A stretch of DNA of 36,954 nt, from the IMG/VR virus record IMGVR_UViG_3300033153_008926, positions 1-36,954 of that record, one strand, 5' to 3'. The stretch's first letter is position 1; the number at the start of each line of letters is the position of its first letter. Source of the stretch: a virus. This document shows, in pieces, positions 2,672 through 36,927 of this stretch. The notes beneath the pieces are model-generated. The model was given only the letters and a program-made list of their open reading frames with translations. It did not search any database and was not told the DNA's origin. The translations under genes and the position numbers were made by a program.

Positions 2672-2703
2672 TTCCGCACTATTTATAAGTGGAGAGTTAT
2701 AAA

Positions 2704-3099
2704 ATGAGCAAATTAAATCCGAAAGAAGCCCTGTGGGAAGCAATAAATATATGCGGAGGGATATCAGAGCTTAGCGACTGCTCAGGGGTTGGGAGACGAA
2801 CAATATATGACGCCCTTAACAAAGATGGGATTAAAACATACAGAACAAACTTCATGAGAAAGCGGACAGCAATGAAAATAGAAAGAGTTACAGGCGTAGA
2901 TTGGCGGTTAATTTGCACTCCTTACCTAGATAATTCACAAATAATGATGATAAAAGAGATAGAAAGTTTCACAAATAATCCTGACAAAACAAAGGATTAC
3001 AACCTAAGGGAATTAAAAAAGCATAAAGTACTTGCAATTGCCGACCAATTACCGCACAATGCTCCCAACATGAATAACAAGATAGAAGAACAACAATAA
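2704..3099 (+). CDS. Cro/YdaS-like helix-turn-helix regulator
   Basis: A 131-residue protein. ATG 2704 was chosen over an in-frame GTG at 2689 because GGAG at 2691-2694 is correctly spaced for the ATG. Residues about 16-42 (GGISELSDCSGVGRRTIYDAL) form a helix-turn-helix of the Cro/YdaS type, the fold of phage lytic-switch repressors. The rest is basic and then polar, with a Gln/Glu-rich end. As first gene of the rightward operon beside operator-like dyads, it is probably an autoregulating early repressor. No partner CI-type repressor is seen in the window. Confidence 0.7.
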   Translation: MSKLNPKEALWEAINICGGISELSDCSGVGRRTIYDALNKDGIKTYRTNFMRKRTAMKIERVTGVDWRLICTPYLDNSQIMMIKEIESFTNNPDKTKDYNLRELKKHKVLAIADQLPHNAPNMNNKIEEQQ

Positions 3100-3113
3100 C
3101 CAAGATCAATGAA

Positions 3114-3270
3114 TTGACATTGAGCCAGCCCTGAAAGGGCAAACGCAAAGGGTGCGTTGGCTCGCAGTTAGAGTGGAAGTCAAGCGGCGGTGGGAGCCGG
3201 TCTAACACCCACACTGAAGTTATAGGAAACAACAGGGGAAGCACTGCAAATCGCCTCCCCGCTTACGGAG
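3114..3270 (+). ncRNA. Structured non-coding leader with predicted three-way junction
   Basis: No credible gene occupies 3100-3278. Within it GAGCC (3122-3126) pairs with GGCTC (3159-3163) and encloses two hairpins: GCCC-TGAAA-GGGC (3128-3140) and AACGCA-AAGGG-TGCGTT (3142-3158), a three-way junction. Downstream, GTGGG (3190-3194) pairs with CCCAC (3208-3212), and GGGGA near 3235 can pair with TCCCC near 3257. It is transcribed with the early operon, between the regulator and the genes leading to csrA. It could be a cis-regulatory leader or a separate small RNA. The fold was predicted by eye. Confidence 0.45.
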
Positions 3271-3278
3271 AAATTGAT

Positions 3279-3440
3279 ATGTGTAAAGAATTTAAACATT
3301 TACTAGGATTCAAGGTTGCATACATAGAGCATTGCAAATCTAAAAACATCAAACCAACCAATGGATACAGCTATTGGATGTGGGCATGGGATAACAGTCC
3401 AAACAACAGAGCAAACTACTCAAGCAGGTGTGCGTCATGA
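3279..3440 (+). CDS. Hypothetical protein (53 aa)
   Basis: ATG 3279 follows ACGGAG with good spacing. The product begins MCKEFKHLLGFKVAYIEHC and contains an aromatic segment SYWMWAWDNSPNN. Its TGA overlaps the next ATG as ATGA. The family is not recognised. Its SD contains the CsrA-type core ANGGA (ACGGA), of interest because csrA lies downstream in the same operon. Confidence 0.6.
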   Translation: MCKEFKHLLGFKVAYIEHCKSKNIKPTNGYSYWMWAWDNSPNNRANYSSRCAS

Positions 3441-3661
3441 GTGTAGAAATATGGCCAGAAGAGCTGCTAAAGATGGATGATAGGACTTTAGAAGCAGCAG
3501 AGAAGTATGATAAAAAGGTTCGGCATCAGCAATGGTTAGACTCTGAAGAGTGCGAGACTGGAAAGTTTGTAGACACTTCTGAGGACATTCTAAGGATAGC
3601 AAGTCTTGATATGAGCAACACACTATTTAAAAAGGGAGTTACAAATGAATACGCTATTTAG
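3437..3661 (+). CDS. Small acidic hypothetical protein (74 aa)
   Basis: Starts at ATG 3437, overlapping the previous stop (ATGA), rather than at an in-frame GTG at 3428. The product begins MSVEIWPEELLKMDD, is acidic and helical, and has no motif I recognise. It overlaps the next gene by 17 bp. Dense packing, coupling and a position just behind the early promoter suggest an early host-takeover gene, but that is inference. Confidence 0.6.
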   Translation: MSVEIWPEELLKMDDRTLEAAEKYDKKVRHQQWLDSEECETGKFVDTSEDILRIASLDMSNTLFKKGVTNEYAI

Positions 3662-3818
3662 AGAGATGCAATTAAACAACTCAAGAGAGGTGATGTTTGC
3701 ATCAAAGGTAAAACACTTTGCAGAGATTCTAGAAGATGTCTCAAAAGACGTAAAAGAGATGGCAGAGAGAGATTATTATTTTGACGGAACCAAGAAGGAG
3801 CAGGATGATGTACAGTGA
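3645..3818 (+). CDS. Small helical hypothetical protein (57 aa)
   Basis: ATG 3645 is preceded by AAGGGAG. The product begins MNTLFREMQLNN and continues as an amphipathic charged helix to the end. The frame differs from both neighbours, and it overlaps them by 17 and 11 bp, as is usual in this operon. Function unknown. Confidence 0.55.
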   Translation: MNTLFREMQLNNSREVMFASKVKHFAEILEDVSKDVKEMAERDYYFDGTKKEQDDVQ

Positions 3819-4056
3819 TATGCTAGAGAAAAGACGCGAGCGAGACATAGAAAATGAGAACATGCTGGAAAAATACGAAGACATATTCGACAAAATGACA
3901 AGCAACGCAGCACCAACAGCATTCCCTGTCGATGGAAAGAGGTACGCTGGCAAGATATTTAATTGTGATGCCTTAAATCAAGCAACATATGACCGTCTTG
4001 TCAGCTACTTCGAAGATCTAGAGAAATTTTTAAACACTTTTAAGGAGAACATGTAA
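3808..4056 (+). CDS. Small charged hypothetical protein (82 aa)
   Basis: ATG 3808 (or the adjacent ATG 3805) lies behind AAGGAG at 3795-3800, inside the end of the previous gene. The N-terminal half is a charged helix ([20 protein letters not shown]); the C-terminal half is more mixed and ends in FENM-like residues. Its TAA overlaps the csrA start (TAATG), so csrA translation is probably coupled to it. Family not recognised. Confidence 0.6.
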
Positions 4057-4259
4057 TGTTAATATTAACCAGAAGAATAGGGGAAACCCTAGTGATCGGA
4101 GACGGAGATATAAAAGCAGAAATAATGGTGATGGACATCAAAGGAAATCAAGTACGACTTGGGATAGATGCGCCAAAGGAAATACCAGTCCACAGGCTTG
4201 AGATTTATCGACAAATAAAGGCTGAAGAAGCCGTAGATAAAATGGAGATGGGATCATGA
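4056..4259 (+). CDS. csrA: CsrA/RsmA-family translational regulator, phage-encoded
   Basis: A 67-residue CsrA, about the usual length (E. coli CsrA has 61). The RNA-binding strand [12 protein letters not shown] is intact, with Leu4, Arg6 and Arg7. [19 protein letters not shown] carries the GNQVRxGxxAPK signature, with Val45 and Arg47 matching E. coli Val42 and Arg44. CsrA dimers bind GGA-containing hairpins, often over SD sites, and repress or stabilise mRNAs. Relative to E. coli it has three extra residues between strands 1 and 2. The SD AAGGAG and TAATG coupling place it mid-operon. It probably redirects host post-transcriptional control or times phage translation. Identification is secure; its targets are inferred. 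Confidence 0.95.
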
Positions 4260-4352: not shown

Positions 4353-5024
4353 ATGGCTACAAATATATTAGTAATTGGAGAAAGCGGAACAGGAAAGAGC
4401 TGGAGCTTGCAAAATCTTGACCCAAAAGAAACTTTCTTAATAAAGTGTTGGGAAAAGCCGCTACCATTCAGGGGAGAGAGAAGCAGATACAAATACGTTG
4501 AGGGTGACATCGAGAAAAGCAACCTTGTAACGTCTCATGATCCTGCAAAAATCTCACACGTTTTAAGCAACATATCAGAACAAAAAAAGGAAATTAAAAA
4601 TGTAATAATTGATGACTTTCAATATATTATGGCGATGGAGTTTTTTAAAACAGCAACTGATAAGGGATATACGAAATTCTCTGTTCTTGCTAAACAGATA
4701 AGTGACCTTTTTTATCTATGTTCAATGCTTAGGCAAGATCTAAACATAGTAACAATGTGCCACTCTGAAGTAGATGAGAATGGAAAAACAAAATGCAAGA
4801 CTGTAGGAAAAATGCTAGACAACCAACTATGCGTAGAAGGTCTGTTCACAATCGTATTTAATTCAGTTGTGAGGGACGGGAAATATGGATTTATCACGCA
4901 AAACGAAGGAATGAACATAGCTAAAGCGCCAGCAGAGATGTTCGAAGACATATTCATAGACAACGATATGAAAGTTGTACTAGATAGAGTTAACGAGTAT
5001 TATTCAGAAGACATACCATACTAA
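4353..5024 (+). CDS. Sak4-like RecA-fold ATPase (single-strand annealing/recombination)
   Basis: A 223-residue P-loop protein. ATG 4353 was chosen because TTAAGGAG sits at the right distance; an upstream in-frame start lacks an SD. Walker A is GESGTGKS (9-16) and Walker B is NVIIDDFQ (83-90). The N-terminus resembles phage AAA_24/Sak4-type proteins, RecA-fold ATPases that assist ssDNA annealing with an SSB partner. A DUF669-like SSB candidate follows immediately, matching that partnership. No separate exonuclease/Red-beta pair is seen. It acts in the cytoplasm on phage replication intermediates. The Sak4 label is by resemblance. Confidence 0.75.
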   Translation: MATNILVIGESGTGKSWSLQNLDPKETFLIKCWEKPLPFRGERSRYKYVEGDIEKSNLVTSHDPAKISHVLSNISEQKKEIKNVIIDDFQYIMAMEFFKTATDKGYTKFSVLAKQISDLFYLCSMLRQDLNIVTMCHSEVDENGKTKCKTVGKMLDNQLCVEGLFTIVFNSVVRDGKYGFITQNEGMNIAKAPAEMFEDIFIDNDMKVVLDRVNEYYSEDIPY

Positions 5025-6183: not shown

Positions 6184-6292
6184 AATAGGCGTCCACAACT
6201 GGAGAATAAAGTCTTGGGCTGGCTGGAATAACCCTGCTACCTGCGAGTGCGCAAAATGCGGAAGAGTTAGAAAGTTTGGGAAGGAGAAGTAG
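6167..6292 (+). CDS. Zinc-ribbon micro-protein, DUF1660-like
   Basis: A 41-residue protein beginning MKWLCKIGVHNWRIKSW and later CECAKCGRVRKFG. The layout, an N-terminal LC-x-GxHxW element followed by a CxxC pair near the basic end, matches the small phage DUF1660 type, with probable ligands Cys5, His10 and the later cysteines. A paralogue with the same layout lies on the other arm at 34733-34867. The start overlaps the end of the previous gene; SD GAAGGAAG. A nucleic-acid or protein-binding role is inferred. Confidence 0.6.
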   Translation: MKWLCKIGVHNWRIKSWAGWNNPATCECAKCGRVRKFGKEK

Positions 6293-6300
6293 AGTGAAGG
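6286..6300 (+). repeat. 15-nt start-site block, copy 1
   Basis: GAAGTAGAGTGAAGG contains the stop of the preceding gene (TAG) and the GTG start of the next. Identical copies are at 6429-6443, 6659-6673 and, on the minus strand, 241-255. Confidence 0.8.
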
Positions 6301-6440
6301 CTGAAAAGCAAGATTGCGAAATCGAAGGCCAAACAAGTTATAAGCTTACATATTCTGCTGATGAGAAAAAAATGTTAGATGATCTTAACGCAAAAAGCCC
6401 ATATCAGATAGTGTGGGAAGAAGAAGGGGAAGTAGAGTGA
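6294..6440 (+). CDS. Acidic hypothetical protein (48 aa), GTG start
   Basis: GTG 6294 follows AAGGAG. The product begins VKAEKQDCEIEGQTSYKL and ends in WEEEGEVE, strongly acidic. It overlaps the next GTG start (GTGA). Both its start and its stop lie in copies of the 15-nt block, so the gene is bounded by direct repeats like a cassette. Function unknown. Confidence 0.55.
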   Translation: MKAEKQDCEIEGQTSYKLTYSADEKKMLDDLNAKSPYQIVWEEEGEVE

Positions 6441-6443
6441 AGG
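6429..6443 (+). repeat. 15-nt start-site block, copy 2
   Basis: Exact copy of GAAGTAGAGTGAAGG at the junction of the 6294 and 6437 genes; here the block provides a GTGA stop/start overlap. Confidence 0.8.
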
Positions 6444-6655
6444 TTTATGACATATTTAAAAAAGACTATAAAATAACACCTGGAATTGCAGAAGATATTC
6501 AAGAGCTTAAGAAGGCAACATTTGAATATGCTCAAAAAGTTGGACTGCTGTTACTTGGCGATTACGATACTAGGTTTTACAGAAAGCTTGATGAGGCAAT
6601 GATGGCTGCTGAAAAAGGGATTATAACAAATCCTTTAAGACCGACGCATTTTTAA
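6437..6655 (+). CDS. Hypothetical protein (72 aa), GTG start
   Basis: GTG 6437 was chosen from the GTGA overlap and the AGGGGAAG SD, not an earlier in-frame ATG at 6413. The product begins VKVYDIFKKDYKITPG and is largely helical, with basic and hydrophobic alternation (KKATFEYAQKVGLLLLGDYD). No family recognised. Its end TTTTTAAGGAG supplies the next SD. Confidence 0.6.
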   Translation: MKVYDIFKKDYKITPGIAEDIQELKKATFEYAQKVGLLLLGDYDTRFYRKLDEAMMAAEKGIITNPLRPTHF

Positions 6656-6658
6656 GGA

Positions 6659-6673
6659 GAAGTAGAGTGAAGG
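6659..6673 (+). repeat. 15-nt start-site block, copy 3
   Basis: Third exact rightward copy of GAAGTAGAGTGAAGG, carrying the GTG start at 6667. Identity continues a few bases further with copy 2 (GAAGGTTTATG). Confidence 0.8.
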
Positions 6674-6876
6674 TTTATGTTTTATTAGAGTCACATATGT
6701 ATACAAACGACGAGGGAGATCGGCATGAGAACTTAGAGCCTTTTTTCGCAGTGTCATCAAAAAAAGCAGCCAAGAAAGCTATTAAGAGGTATACCCATGT
6801 AGGAGCATATGTTGAAATTGAAGTGGAAAAAGAATATAAAATTTATATGGATAGTACAGCTACGTGGAATGCATGA
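6667..6876 (+). CDS. Small YVL-type protein (DUF7336-like), 69 aa
   Basis: GTG 6667 follows AAGGAG. The pattern VKVYVLLESHMYTNDEGD, then EPFFAVSSKKAAKKAIKRY, resembles small beta-alpha-beta proteins of the kind VYVL...hhGVYSSxExA (DUF7336-like). Similar proteins occur at 7447, 34542 and 36011, making this a paralogue family on both arms. Function unknown. It is the last gene before the 20-nt repeat array begins. Confidence 0.6.
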   Translation: MKVYVLLESHMYTNDEGDRHENLEPFFAVSSKKAAKKAIKRYTHVGAYVEIEVEKEYKIYMDSTATWNA

Positions 6877-6884
6877 CTAATACC

Positions 6885-6906
6885 GATAAGTGTTATTATC
6901 GGACTT
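6885..6906 (+). repeat. Intercistronic repeat, copy 1 of 5
   Basis: GATAA followed by GTGTTATTATCGGACTT. In this copy CCGATAA (6883-6889) and TTATCGG (6896-6902) form a perfect 7-bp stem with a 6-nt loop. An SD (AAGGGGA) and ATG follow within 20 bp. Confidence 0.9.
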
Positions 6907-6923
6907 AATATAAGGGGAAAATT

Positions 6924-7106
6924 ATGATTGAAGGAATGCATTTTTGGAATTCTCACATTAAGACCATTGAAGACATAAGAAAAGAGTTAGATCTTATTGT
7001 TGGAGGGGCTTATGATCCAGACACAATTGCTGGCCCATTAATTAACATAATTTACGAATTAACTGGCATATTACAAGCATACACCGAGGGCACAGACGAC
7101 GACTAG
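6924..7106 (+). CDS. Cassette protein (60 aa), unknown
   Basis: Between intercistronic repeats 1 and 2, with SD AAGGGGA. The product begins MIEGMHFWNSHIKTIEDI and is helical, ending in an acidic tail TEGTDDD. Its TAG shares its last base with repeat 2. No family recognised. Confidence 0.65.
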   Translation: MIEGMHFWNSHIKTIEDIRKELDLIVGGAYDPDTIAGPLINIIYELTGILQAYTEGTDDD

Positions 7107-7127
7107 ATAAGTGTTATTATCGGACTT
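7106..7127 (+). repeat. Intercistronic repeat, copy 2 of 5
   Basis: Exact 22-nt match to copy 1 (GATAA plus GTGTTATTATCGGACTT). It begins on the last base of the preceding TAG stop, and AAGGGGAAAATTATG follows directly, as in copy 1. Confidence 0.9.
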
Positions 7128-7139
7128 AAGGGGAAAATT

Positions 7140-7415
7140 ATGAAGATAGAAAAGGCAATGGTAGAGAGTAAAAAAGTTGAGGAATTGTGTTGGAAAATGT
7201 ACGACCTTTCAGGTCTGCCTGAGCATAATGAAGACGATAGGTTTTCAAATGACCAATATACAATTGATGAACTATTAGAATTATGCGATTTGATCGGGAA
7301 AAGAATTAACAGTTTTAGAGATTTAGCTGCGGAATCAAAAGCTATTGGTTGTGAAAATTTTAAAAAGCAGGCGATGAAGAAAGTTGACGAGTTTCAAAAG
7401 TGGCTGAAAGGATAA
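7140..7415 (+). CDS. Cassette protein, helical (91 aa), unknown
   Basis: SD AAGGGGA from the repeat junction. The product begins MKIEKAMVESKKVEELCWKM and is an almost fully helical, charged protein ending in KWLKG. Its TAA stop lies inside repeat 3. No recognisable motif. Confidence 0.65.
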   Translation: MKIEKAMVESKKVEELCWKMYDLSGLPEHNEDDRFSNDQYTIDELLELCDLIGKRINSFRDLAAESKAIGCENFKKQAMKKVDEFQKWLKG

Positions 7416-7432
7416 GTGTTATTATCGGACTT
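7411..7432 (+). repeat. Intercistronic repeat, copy 3 of 5
   Basis: Exact 22-nt copy. The TAA at its bases 3-5 is the stop codon of the preceding gene, so the repeat overlaps coding sequence. TATAGGGGAATGAGATG follows. Confidence 0.9.
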
Positions 7433-7446
7433 TATAGGGGAATGAG

Positions 7447-7701
7447 ATGAAACAGACAATAAAAGTATATGTTGCGGTTAGCGAGGATGTTTGCTCTCGA
7501 TGCATGCATGAGGATGAGGATGAATATAATGATTTTTTAGGTGTGTTTGGATCAAAGAAGGAAGCAATGGAATGCCTTACAGAAAACAGACTATATCCTA
7601 ATCACGGAGATACTCATGCCAAAATTCGTGAGAGATATGTAACTATAAACAAAGCTGAAATGGAAAAGGAACTGGATAAACTCAAAGGTGAAAACCAATA
7701 G
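7447..7701 (+). CDS. Cassette protein, YVL-type with CxxC (84 aa)
   Basis: SD AGGGGA. The N-terminus MKQTIKVYVAVSEDVCSRCM, then FLGVFGSKKEAMECL, follows the same beta-alpha layout as the 6667, 34542 and 36011 products, here with an added CSRC pair. The C-terminus is a charged helix. DUF7336-like by resemblance; function unknown. Confidence 0.6.
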   Translation: MKQTIKVYVAVSEDVCSRCMHEDEDEYNDFLGVFGSKKEAMECLTENRLYPNHGDTHAKIRERYVTINKAEMEKELDKLKGENQ

Positions 7702-7722
7702 ATAAGTGTTATTATCGGACTT
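7701..7722 (+). repeat. Intercistronic repeat, copy 4 of 5
   Basis: Exact 22-nt copy beginning on the last base of the TAG of the preceding gene. It continues with TGTAGAAGGGGATTGAGATG, which is identical to the sequence after copy 5. Confidence 0.9.
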
Positions 7723-7739
7723 TGTAGAAGGGGATTGAG

Positions 7740-7988
7740 ATGAAACCAGATGAAATTACAGTAATTCCAGACAATGAAATGCTCACAATTTTGCCGACCA
7801 CGCAAGAGGCATTTCTTGAAATACCAGAAGGACATCCTATTCTAAAAAAAATTAGCGAACAAGGAGGATGTTGCATGGATGTGTTTTATGACTTTACTGA
7901 AATGGCAATTCATGAAAGCATAAAGACAGGAGAAAAAACATACATAGGCGACCACAAAGACAAAAAGGTTTATATTTTAGTTGAGTAA
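7740..7988 (+). CDS. Cassette protein (82 aa), unknown
   Basis: SD AAGGGGA. The product begins MKPDEITVIPDNEMLTILP and has a central GGCCMDV. It is acidic and mixed alpha/beta. Its TAA lies inside repeat 5. No family recognised. Confidence 0.65.
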   Translation: MKPDEITVIPDNEMLTILPTTQEAFLEIPEGHPILKKISEQGGCCMDVFYDFTEMAIHESIKTGEKTYIGDHKDKKVYILVE

Positions 7989-8005
7989 GTGTTATTATCG
8001 GACTT
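7984..8005 (+). repeat. Intercistronic repeat, copy 5 of 5
   Basis: The 20-nt core TAAGTGTTATTATCGGACTT (7986-8005) is exact; the two bases before it differ from copies 1-4, so the GATAA/TTATC stem is weakened. The TAA is the stop of the preceding gene. Confidence 0.9.
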
Positions 8006-8022
8006 TGTAGAAGGGGATTGAG

Positions 8023-8187
8023 ATGGATAGAAGCATAGGAAAGTTAGAGGAATTTTTTTTAGAATTTACAGAAAGTGTATTTTTGCCGATGTTGCTTGTT
8101 GCCATAATGGTAATTTGCTCACCACTGCTTGTACCATATTGCCTATATAGAATTTACAAAAGGAGCAAGAGTGAAAAGACAAAATAG
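8023..8187 (+). CDS. Cassette membrane protein (54 aa)
   Basis: ATG 8023 follows AAGGGGA of repeat 5. An acidic N-terminus (MDRSIGKLEEFFLEF) precedes one transmembrane helix, about residues 20-42 (FLPMLLVAIMVICSPLLV), then a basic tail YRIYKRSKSEKTK. It overlaps the nuclease gene by 17 bp and carries that gene's SD. Function unknown. Confidence 0.6.
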   Translation: MDRSIGKLEEFFLEFTESVFLPMLLVAIMVICSPLLVPYCLYRIYKRSKSEKTK

Positions 8188-8545
8188 AGAAGATCAAGAG
8201 CTAATAGCTATATTTGACTGGGCAAAGCATTTCAAAATACTTCGTGAGCATATGTTTCATATTGCCAACGAACGCAAGACAACCTTCGCTGCAGGCAAAA
8301 GACTAAGTCGAAAAGGCGTCATGCCTGGCGTAGCTGATATCTTCCTATCCTACCCCTCAGGAGATTACCATGGACTCTATATAGAACTCAAAGGGCCAAA
8401 AGCAATTAAAGGTTATCGCCCTGCCAAGGTCAGCAAACCACAGATGACATTCCTAGGAAGAATGTGCGCAGCTGGATATTGTACCTGCATAAAATATGGT
8501 GCAGAAGAAGCAATAGAAGCTATCGAGCATTACCTAACGCTGTGA
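8171..8545 (+). CDS. VRR-NUC domain nuclease
   Basis: A 124-residue protein from GTG 8171, with AGGAG six bases upstream; no ATG fits. It is a stand-alone VRR-NUC fold: GVADIFL (Asp56), then LYIELKG (Glu72, Lys74) and SKPQ (Gln91) give the PD-(D/E)xK active site. Phage VRR-NUC proteins cut branched or replication DNA, or act as Holliday-junction-type endonucleases. It ends the rightward operon that also encodes Sak4-like and SSB-like proteins, so a recombination or packaging-substrate role is likely. Family call is strong; substrate is inferred. Confidence 0.85.
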   Translation: MKRQNREDQELIAIFDWAKHFKILREHMFHIANERKTTFAAGKRLSRKGVMPGVADIFLSYPSGDYHGLYIELKGPKAIKGYRPAKVSKPQMTFLGRMCAAGYCTCIKYGAEEAIEAIEHYLTL

Positions 8546-9082: not shown

Positions 9083-10399
9083 TCAATAACGATAAGTATG
9101 GTTTTTGTGGGCACTTTCTTTCTCGAAGTACTGTTGCCAGGTAATAGCAAAGTACATCATTGTATCAGCAAAGTGAGAACTCCAGTCATGTATAGGCCTG
9201 TCTTTATAAAGACCTTTCTTGTCATCATAGTCATAATGGTAATCACGCAATGCATTTAGGAGCATTTCACATCTTTCAGCATCAAAATGACACCTTACAA
9301 GTACAGAGCGCAATGCCTCGCGCCCATCTGTGTGGTCCATTTTCTTAACGGGAGGCTGAAAATATATACCATTATCGTGTGCTATATGAAACCTGGTGCG
9401 CCCAGACCCCCATTCGTGGACATTAATATCGTGAGGTGGAAAGTGATATTTACACTTAACTCCATGCTCTTCCTCGAAGTCTTTTATGTAATTAGCATAG
9501 TGTGGAATATCTTGCTTTCGGTTATTATAGCAATGTACAAACCTAAGTTCACCACCAAACGGTTGCATAAACACAATCACCGTATCATCATTCCAACCTA
9601 TATCCCACCAAGTAAATACAGGAAGAGATTTCTCTATTGGAATCTTTCTAACTCGCTTATCCTTCTCTGCTTTATTTATCCATGAGCCAAATACACTTCC
9701 GGGCATTTCGACATCGAATGAACAATAGAACTCTTGCTGTATAACCTCTTCAGGCATACCCTCATTACGCATACGCTGTATTTCTTCAGCATCAAACACT
9801 GGTTTTCCATCTGCACGTTTAGTTTCATTAGCGCCAGCTTTAGTAACAAACCACTCAGGATTATTTTTATTACTGTTATATATATGATACCCATGATTCT
9901 TTCCGCGAGGTGTATAACAAAAGATTTCAACACCGTCATTCTCAGACAAGATAGGACGCAGATAAGTTCTAGCCTGTGGGTTCTGAAGCGAATACTCATC
10001 ATAGATAATAGATACAGGATTAGTTCCCATAATAGAATCGTACCTATCAGTTCCAACCAATTGCAGAATAGAACCGTTTTTAAATTCAAGTAACATTTCT
10101 GAATTATCTTTACGCTTAACTAACTCCTTAGGAATGTAATCTAAATAACGACGTCCGTTATAATCCGCACCATTCCAAACAACTTTCTTGCCCTGTCTGA
10201 GTTGTGGAAACGTATATAGATGAAGACCTACACGCTTATGAGCTAAAGCTGTAATTAGGTTAAGTAGACTAATGGTTTTACCAGCACGACGATGCCAGAT
10301 GATAATAGAATGCCTTACACCTTCAACAAGTATTTTCTCGTAGACAACACGCTGATATTCTCTAGGACTAAACCCATGAGGCAATTCTATTATATTCAT
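9083..10399 (-). CDS. terL: Terminase large subunit (ATPase/nuclease)
   Basis: A 438-residue DNA-packaging motor. The ATPase has a Walker A variant WHRRAGKT (35-42), Walker B IIYDE (131-135) and a coupling motif around CYTPRGK (161-167). The RNase H-like nuclease shows WWDIG (Asp266), PPHD (Asp324) and SHFADTMMY (Asp412). Length is slightly short but complete. It is the last late gene, 3 bp after the fibre gene, at the same position as T7 gp19. No good SD precedes ATG 10399, so translation is probably coupled. The small subunit is not adjacent (see 35542). Confidence 0.93.
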   Translation of the reverse strand: MNIIELPHGFSPREYQRVVYEKILVEGVRHSIIIWHRRAGKTISLLNLITALAHKRVGLHLYTFPQLRQGKKVVWNGADYNGRRYLDYIPKELVKRKDNSEMLLEFKNGSILQLVGTDRYDSIMGTNPVSIIYDEYSLQNPQARTYLRPILSENDGVEIFCYTPRGKNHGYHIYNSNKNNPEWFVTKAGANETKRADGKPVFDAEEIQRMRNEGMPEEVIQQEFYCSFDVEMPGSVFGSWINKAEKDKRVRKIPIEKSLPVFTWWDIGWNDDTVIVFMQPFGGELRFVHCYNNRKQDIPHYANYIKDFEEEHGVKCKYHFPPHDINVHEWGSGRTRFHIAHDNGIYFQPPVKKMDHTDGREALRSVLVRCHFDAERCEMLLNALRDYHYDYDDKKGLYKDRPIHDWSSHFADTMMYFAITWQQYFEKESAHKNHTYRY

Positions 10400-36010: not shown

Positions 36011-36232
36011 CTACCAGTGAGATACTGGAGCACTAACTGACGGCTTGACTCTTCCGCAAGTAGGGCACGTAGGAAGTACAGATGCCTGATCAATTTTAAT
36101 GCTAAACATTCGAGAGCTTGGCGCTGAGCATCCAGCTTTAGATGCCTTCTCTTCTGACGAATAAACACCGAAAATGTGCTCTATATTTCCATTAGCATAA
36201 TCTGGTTCATACAAAACATAAACTTCTTTCAT
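36011..36232 (-). CDS. Small YVL-type protein with CPTCG (73 aa)
   Basis: ATG 36232 overlaps the previous TAA (TAATG), SD AGAGGATG. The N-terminus MKEVYVLYEPDYANGN, then HIFGVYSSEEKASKAG, is the clearest DUF7336-like member of the four in this window. The C-terminus adds a CPTCG knuckle. Function unknown. Confidence 0.65.
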   Translation of the reverse strand: MKEVYVLYEPDYANGNIEHIFGVYSSEEKASKAGCSAPSSRMFSIKIDQASVLPTCPTCGRVKPSVSAPVSHW

Positions 36233-36843: not shown

Positions 36844-36927
36844 GGGGGCTGGCGGGATTTGAACCCGCATCTGGCTTAGTTTAAAGCGGCCGCTTAGGCC
36901 CGTTCTGCTCGATTTAACTACAGCCCC
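36844..36927 (-). tRNA. tRNA or tRNA-like gene, long variable region
   Basis: On the minus strand a perfect 7-bp acceptor GGGGCTG/CAGCCCC (identical to the copy at 753-834), a 3-bp D stem GTT/AAC with loop AAATCGAGCAG, and a T arm GCGGG-TTCAAAT-CCCGC. The total of 84 nt and the D-arm layout fit a class II (Leu-like) tRNA. The variable arm would be GCTT-TAAACT-AAGC. The anticodon arm is poor: GGC-CTAAGCG-GCC gives AAG (Leu) with two outer mismatches. CCA is not encoded. Amino acid identity is uncertain. Confidence 0.65.

Follow-up and report, generated by a model that had tools for sequence, protein, structure and literature searches.

The DNA analysed here over its whole length of 36,954 bp (the window) belongs to a podovirus-type phage with a portal protein (PF12236) and a terminase large subunit gene at 9083-10399. 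Its terminase large subunit, tail, capsid and endolysin genes are located on the minus strand and the early operon on the plus strand; the latter comprises a repressor-like gene (2689-3099, a weak match), csrA, a gene for a Sak4-like annealing protein (4353-5024) and many small genes, as well as an array of five short repeats followed by a gene for a VRR-NUC-type nuclease. No DNA similar to the early region of the window was found among 50,697 phage records, and the five small proteins encoded in the array gave no match to annotated phages. The features of the array and its two flanking anchors are the following:

4056-4259, plus strand: csrA (PF02599, E 1.8e-21), a conserved syntenic anchor, 66% identical in the relative L027
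6883-6902, plus strand: complete element of putative ancestral type at copy 1, a CCGATAA-GTGTTA-TTATCGG hairpin, with the identical 20-mer in L027 at 3737-3756
6887-6906, plus strand: copy 1 of the 20-mer, exact match
6914-6918, 7130-7134, 7437-7441, 7730-7734 and 8013-8017, plus strand: GGGGA Shine-Dalgarno sequences of copies 1-5, read off the sequence
6924-7106, plus strand: small gene 1, 60 aa, without family
7108-7127, plus strand: copy 2; the TAG stop of the upstream gene lies at 7104-7106
7140-7415, plus strand: small gene 2, 91 aa, no family above the cut-off
7413-7432, plus strand: copy 3; its own TAA (7413-7415) is the stop of the upstream gene
7447-7701, plus strand: small gene 3, 84 aa, weak match to PHROG 3002 (unknown function)
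7703-7722, plus strand: copy 4; the TAG stop of the upstream gene lies at 7699-7701
7703-7742, plus strand: 40-nt stretch including the ATG, identical to 7986-8025 (copy 4 versus copy 5)
7740-7988, plus strand: small gene 4, 82 aa, without family
7986-8005, plus strand: copy 5; its own TAA (7986-7988) is the stop of the upstream gene; stem broken
8023-8187, plus strand: small gene 5, 54 aa, with a hydrophobic stretch read from the sequence, probably encoding a membrane protein
8171-8545, plus strand: VRR-NUC nuclease gene (Pfam score just under the cut-off), a conserved syntenic anchor, 75% identical in L027

Some further features of the window should be mentioned in their own right. The small protein genes at 6667-6876 and 36011-36232 both show weak DUF7336 matches below the Pfam cut-off, and the latter matches PHROG 3002, as does the gene at 7447-7701. 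A gap of 180 nt in the early operon (3100-3280) is predicted to form a three-way junction and more hairpins, with a total energy that is not unusual (z -0.6) and no match in Rfam. The Rfam search of the window returned tRNAs only, and none of its matches fell in the array; one of them, at 36844-36927 on the minus strand, is a second tRNA missed by ARAGORN, which lies on the same strand as tRNA-Arg(TCT) (753-834), at the opposite end of the record.

The repeat and its predicted hairpin

The 20-mer TAAGTGTTATTATCGGACTT is present in five exact copies, at 6887, 7108, 7413, 7703 and 7986, all of them on the plus strand, and no further copy exists in the 36,954-bp record even if three mismatches are allowed; in shuffled sequence, 0 copies are expected. 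Each of the five is placed between a stop codon and a Shine-Dalgarno sequence on this single strand, with a GGGGA in every leader and the ATG 12-17 nt downstream of the 20-mer. An earlier note on this DNA had claimed just that, a 20-nt core occurring exactly five times, each time shortly before a Shine-Dalgarno sequence and a start codon, and its further statements on the TAA of the core serving twice as stop of the previous gene (copies 3 and 5), on the identity of copies 4 and 5 up to the start codon (40 nt with the ATG included) and on the unrelated nature of the five small downstream genes (no similarity among their proteins was detectable) proved right as well. A TAG was said to end twice on the first base of the core, which applies to the longer form GATAAG in copies 2 and 4, where the G of the stop is the first base of this form, two bases before the 20-mer, and does not apply to the 20-mer itself.

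Between the 20-mer and the ATG, copies 1 and 2 form one group and copies 3, 4 and 5 another, set apart by several substitutions and two short indels. Unlike this variable segment, the 20-mer shows zero changes across the copies, suggesting that the 20-mer itself is being maintained; the variable 3' part could instead represent the junctions with newly acquired genes.

The complete element, as seen at copy 1, is 20 nt long and consists of a 7-bp stem, CCGATAA/TTATCGG, and the loop GTGTTA, starting 6 nt past the TGA stop (6874-6876) of the gene upstream. Copy 1 and the element of L027 (see below) are predicted to fold with -7.2 kcal/mol for 20 nt (z -4.3). In copies 2-5, the loop and the 3' arm are kept and part of the left arm is lost, being truncated by the stop region of the gene upstream; since the left arm is cut into in these copies, its outer part is not essential to whatever keeps the rest. 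Copies 2-4 lack the CC/GG pairs and retain a weak stem (about -3 versus -7 kcal/mol). In isolated leaders, the predicted pairing probability of the central stem amounts to 1.00, 0.78, 0.79, 0.81 and 0.08 for copies 1-5, respectively, and that of the stem to 0.99 in L027 and 0.84 in the more distant phage L060. Ahead of the ribosome binding site, a stable hairpin is predicted for copy 1 and L027, a weak one for copies 2-4 and none for copy 5, so that the stem-loop is a predicted fold in four copies. The claim that four copies can form GATAA/TTATC stems is correct regarding the motif, which is found in copies 1-4 and not in copy 5, but a stable 7-bp hairpin is predicted within the array for copy 1 only. 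No compensatory base changes were found, the stem being invariant, and covariation is uninformative because the stem never varies.

The element in other phages

A scan of IMG/VR with the terminase yielded two contigs, L131 and L132, whose TerL is 70% and 73% identical to that of the window; L132 is the contig of L027, which had first been found via csrA (66%). As L131 and L027 differ in only 2 of 4,619 overlapping nt, they are counted as one relative, the only near relative of the window found in IMG/VR. In the stretch from csrA to VRR-NUC, none of the proteins of L027 resembles those of the window, and the recombination module is RecE/RecT in L027 versus Sak4 in the window. L027 contains one perfect CCGATAAGTGTTATTATCGG (a count that covers this fragment), situated before a gene unrelated to those of the window, 8 nt past a stop codon and 16 nt ahead of an ATG, with an AAGGGG Shine-Dalgarno sequence in between. 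Following CCGATAAGTGTTATTATCGG, TATAAGGGG is found both in L027 and in copy 1 of the window; the L027 copy continues into TTATAAGGGGTAAGAAATG and copy 1 of the window (6883-6902) into ACTTAATATAAGGGGAAAATTATG. No exact DNA match shared by L027 and the window is longer than this non-coding CCGATAAGTGTTATTATCGG, and a stretch within TerL equals it in length.

CCGATAAGTGTTATTATCGG and TAAGTGTTATTATCGGACTT overlap in TAAGTGTTATTATCGG, and the ACTT of TAAGTGTTATTATCGGACTT is specific to the window. As CCGATAAGTGTTATTATCGG is present in both phages, the unit conserved between them is therefore the hairpin CCGATAA-GTGTTA-TTATCGG and not the 20-mer as the earlier note had drawn it. The check proposed in that note, to search related phages and to compare the gene content, had a positive outcome, the element being present in L027 before an unrelated gene despite complete gene turnover, which supports the view that a start-associated element may outlive the genes behind it. 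The copies could either drive the cassette swapping considered in that note or just mark its outcome. The simplest history suggested by these sequences would start from a single copy in an ancestor, which was multiplied to five in the phage of the window.

An array of this kind could also have arisen without any regulatory role, if the copies were short homologies derived from, and used in, serial gene capture by an annealing recombinase, their identity then reflecting recent copying. The layout resembles an att-gene-att array, gene turnover between the relatives is complete, copies 4 and 5 share 40 nt through the ATG with unrelated genes behind them, and annealing genes are at hand in all three phages (the Sak4-like protein of the window, the RecE/RecT pair of L027, an AAA_24 (Sak4-like) ATPase in L060); in addition, a second shared start sequence of the type GAGAAGTRGAG lies ahead of different genes in the window and in L027. 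We nevertheless regard this explanation as distinctly unlikely: recency cannot account for the same 20 nt being perfect in a relative with 65-75% identical proteins, the copies are invariably placed between stop and Shine-Dalgarno sequence, and no site-specific recombinase was present among the ORFs searched. The second start-associated family, AAGGRGAAGTAGAGTGAAGG(TTTAT), occurs at 6281-6300, 6424-6445 and 6654-6675 on the plus strand and at 239-256 on the minus strand, at the GTG start codons of genes that differ from one another and often begin with M-K-V-Y, where two reading frames can be stopped by its TAG and TGA; AAGGAGAAGTGAGATGAAAGTTTATG, a close form of this family, lies at about 2866 in L027.

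Exact scans with the 20-mer and the 19-mer found nothing in IMG/VR or in 84,980 genomes (those of GTDB in the case of the 19-mer), and annotated phages yielded weak partial matches only. The 15-mer GTGTTATTATCGGAC is found in 20 IMG/VR contigs, in single copy in each and at chance level, and the 16-mer GATAAGTGTTATTATC in 27 IMG/VR contigs, nearly all of the matches apart from L027/L131 lying inside ORFs; L142 has the full 20-mer, but within an ORF of 125 aa, and the 18-mer CGATAAGTGTTATTATCG matches six genome contigs, in none of them ahead of a start. When all 16-18-mer matches in IMG/VR and the 84,980 genomes are taken together, a location outside ORFs with a Shine-Dalgarno sequence and a start codon behind it is seen only in the window, L027 and L131, nearly all of the others being inside ORFs.

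Searching 96 phage records with csrA or VRR-NUC for the exact stem CGATAA-N6-TTATCG returned only L027/L131 and L060. The latter is a different, more distant phage with csrA, a Sak4-like AAA_24 ATPase and an SSB-like gene, in which CCGATAA-ACGCTA-TTATCGG, the same stem with another loop, precedes a new gene, 2 nt past a stop and 40 nt ahead of the next ATG. By our own arithmetic, chance would give about 0.2 matches in the 96 records if 12 bases are fixed and about 0.02 if 14 are; however, that very stem was the search pattern, so that stem conservation is partly built in, and we take L060 as suggestive of a further instance of the element, not as proof. Behind the element, both L027 and L060 have Cys-containing genes; homology between them was considered and rejected, lacking BLAST support. 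L060 also contains, at 3456-3793, two adjoining ORFs of low-complexity repeats rich in Ser, Trp, Lys and Arg (GGTCTTGGTCTA units). Carriage of csrA was rejected as a predictor of the element, as L055/L056, L093 and L098 have start-associated repeats of their own with other sequences; in the csrA-bearing L055 and L056, this is GGAAATTGACGATG in 5-6 copies, accompanied by a palindromic GGTGGGGAACTCCCCACC between genes.

Promoter, operator or RNA signal

Any mechanism proposed for the repeat has to deal with four facts: the copies lie between stop and Shine-Dalgarno sequence, they are identical in sequence down to the loop, three phages have the full dyad, and four copies have lost part of the left arm. 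The first three are accounted for by an RNA element, which is compatible with the last provided that a weak stem suffices, or the loop together with the 3' arm. Its main rival is an internal promoter: each copy could be a sigma-70 extended -10 promoter (TG-N-TATTAT with a CGGA discriminator) providing every new gene with its own transcript, as in phage morons. The invariant block TAAG-TG-T-TATTAT-CGGA-CTT would cover about -19 to +1, TGTTATTAT (TGN plus a TATAAT-like hexamer) is kept in all five copies and in L027, copies 4 and 5 reach a 9/12 sigma-70 match with TG, and at genome density an extended -10 this good would turn up in 0.5% of comparable stretches, and in 1.7% of permuted 20-mers. 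A promoter would further account for copies 2-5 being able to lose the left arm, and it fits the sequence identity including the loop; it does not fit the dyad, giving no reason for the left arm CCGATAA to be perfect in copy 1, L027 and L060. L060 moreover is without the TG (CGCTATTAT), no -35 is common to the copies, promoters rarely are identical across 20 nt, and the leaders of the resulting transcripts would be as short as about 12-17 nt. On balance, we consider the promoter a serious though somewhat unlikely explanation. A promoter for a phage single-subunit RNA polymerase was rejected, no such polymerase being present among the ORFs searched against Pfam and PHROGs.

The dyad CCGATAA-N6-TTATCGG, which is perfect in copy 1, L027 and L060, might alternatively be the operator of a dimeric DNA-binding repressor, and the early gene at 2689-3099 shows a weak match to a repressor family. 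This is very unlikely and was disfavoured, as the genome holds no more half-sites: TTATCGG is found nowhere else, and is therefore absent from the main divergent early promoters near 2400-2700. The left half-site, moreover, is degraded in four of the five copies, and all copies are located inside an operon on one strand.

Control by CsrA, whose binding to the repeat the earlier note had proposed to check, is attractive as the phage encodes this protein. Phage CsrA would bind the GGA of the repeat (CGGAC) and that of the Shine-Dalgarno sequence (GGGGA) and thereby block ribosomes. The CsrA of the window possesses the usual RNA-contact residues (L4, R6, VHR). csrA is present in the phage of the window, L027 and L060, and each leader of the window has two GGA 10-15 nt apart, inside the bridging range of 10-63 nt known for CsrA, which recognises ANGGAN in a loop as its site (PMC7652899). 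The leader of L027, however, is devoid of any GGA (CGGTTATAAGGGGT), for which reason CsrA was rejected as the main explanation; in addition, the GGAs of the window lack the A of ANGGAN and lie outside the hairpin loop, and the AAGGA of other genes in the same phage is the better CsrA fit. Binding of CsrA to the repeat therefore appears extremely unlikely. In general, csrA is carried by 85 public phage records. Two csrA-like matches, one with an internal TAA, are seen in L094/L096; for 30 phages with csrA, its role was described as not tested (PMC7366521). A separate perfect 7-bp stem, TTTATAA/TTATAAA with GGAG in its 8-nt loop, is located at 2682-2703 and extends right up to the ATG at 2704, where the first early gene starts; it may be a site for the phage CsrA or a hairpin hiding the Shine-Dalgarno sequence.

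Relation to known elements and possible function

The nearest known kind in terms of behaviour are the start-associated sequences (SAS) of cluster K mycobacteriophages, short repeats by the Shine-Dalgarno sequence and start of many genes of different families, nearly all in one orientation; about half of them are accompanied just upstream by an ESAS, an inverted repeat with 17 bp arms and a spacer of 4-13 bp, and the function of both has remained unproven since 2011 (PMC3203893, PMC12699233). In the window, too, one repeat stands by the start codon, in one orientation and ahead of unrelated families, and it does so in L027 as well. Membership in this class fails nevertheless: the SAS consensus GGGATAGGAGCCC has no match in the window at two or fewer mismatches, matches with three being at chance level, the arms here measure 7 bp with a spacer of 6 in contrast to the arms of about 17 bp in ESAS, and the five copies are clustered in one accessory stretch only, in a podovirus-type phage and not a mycobacteriophage. 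The analogy to cluster K drawn in the earlier note is apt in the sense of working alike, whereas the consensus itself is absent.

T4 gene 43 possesses a hairpin operator with a conserved loop upstream of the ribosome binding site (PMC3014915), and the element would resemble translational operators of this type as a predicted small hairpin with a conserved loop in the same place; the operator of gene 43, however, serves the own gene of the binding protein, while here five unrelated genes share one element. CsrA/RsmA sites are alike in the signal by the Shine-Dalgarno sequence and in the carriage of csrA, and unlike in that a conserved GGA or ANGGAN loop is missing. Integron cassette arrays and phage morons also have unrelated small genes parted by one short sequence, but compared with integron arrays the element has only 20 nt and is positioned for expression; among the part of the window's ORFs searched against PHROGs and Pfam, no integrase was matched.

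The array consists of five identical copies, each between stop and start, and the element is kept in a diverged relative despite gene turnover. We are fairly confident that it is a conserved and portable element, associated with starts and used repeatedly ahead of unrelated genes. The more specific reading we favour, to which we give slightly less than even credence, is that of a portable start-associated cis-regulatory element which probably acts in RNA and was copied to five sites as genes were acquired; we infer the action in RNA as well as the identity of a reader and the direction of regulation. In the one independent close relative found, CCGATAAGTGTTATTATCGG is perfect at a TerL identity of 70-73% and a CsrA identity of 66%. 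As a counterpoint, it should be noted that the linear 20-mer is perfect even though copy 5 is stemless and copies 2-4 are weakened, a perfection that structure alone would not require.

According to the cis-regulatory reading, the complete 20-nt hairpin would have been placed directly after the stop of one early gene and just ahead of the next Shine-Dalgarno sequence, where the transcript most likely forms a small stem-loop or a sequence tag. This stem-loop or tag would be read by a phage factor, a host factor or the ribosome itself, and the reader would thereby determine the translation of the next cistron or its local stability, in the way T4-type translational operators, and perhaps ESAS elements, work. 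The element would have been retained while the flanking genes were exchanged, and its copy number would have risen from one to five with the placing of unrelated small genes behind it, leaving five accessory genes under one signal. A more far-reaching version, which we consider unlikely, sees in the element a portable stop-to-start RNA adapter, by which any small gene placed behind it would join a coordinated, post-transcriptionally controlled set, the identical copies also aiding exchange by the annealing recombinase, with the accessory genes turning over completely and the adapter remaining fixed.

The signal is separated here from the genes it precedes, since a 20-nt element is perfect between two phages in which all neighbouring genes are different. 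The element is directly testable by a reporter, and it bears on the wider question of how phages bring freshly acquired small genes under control.
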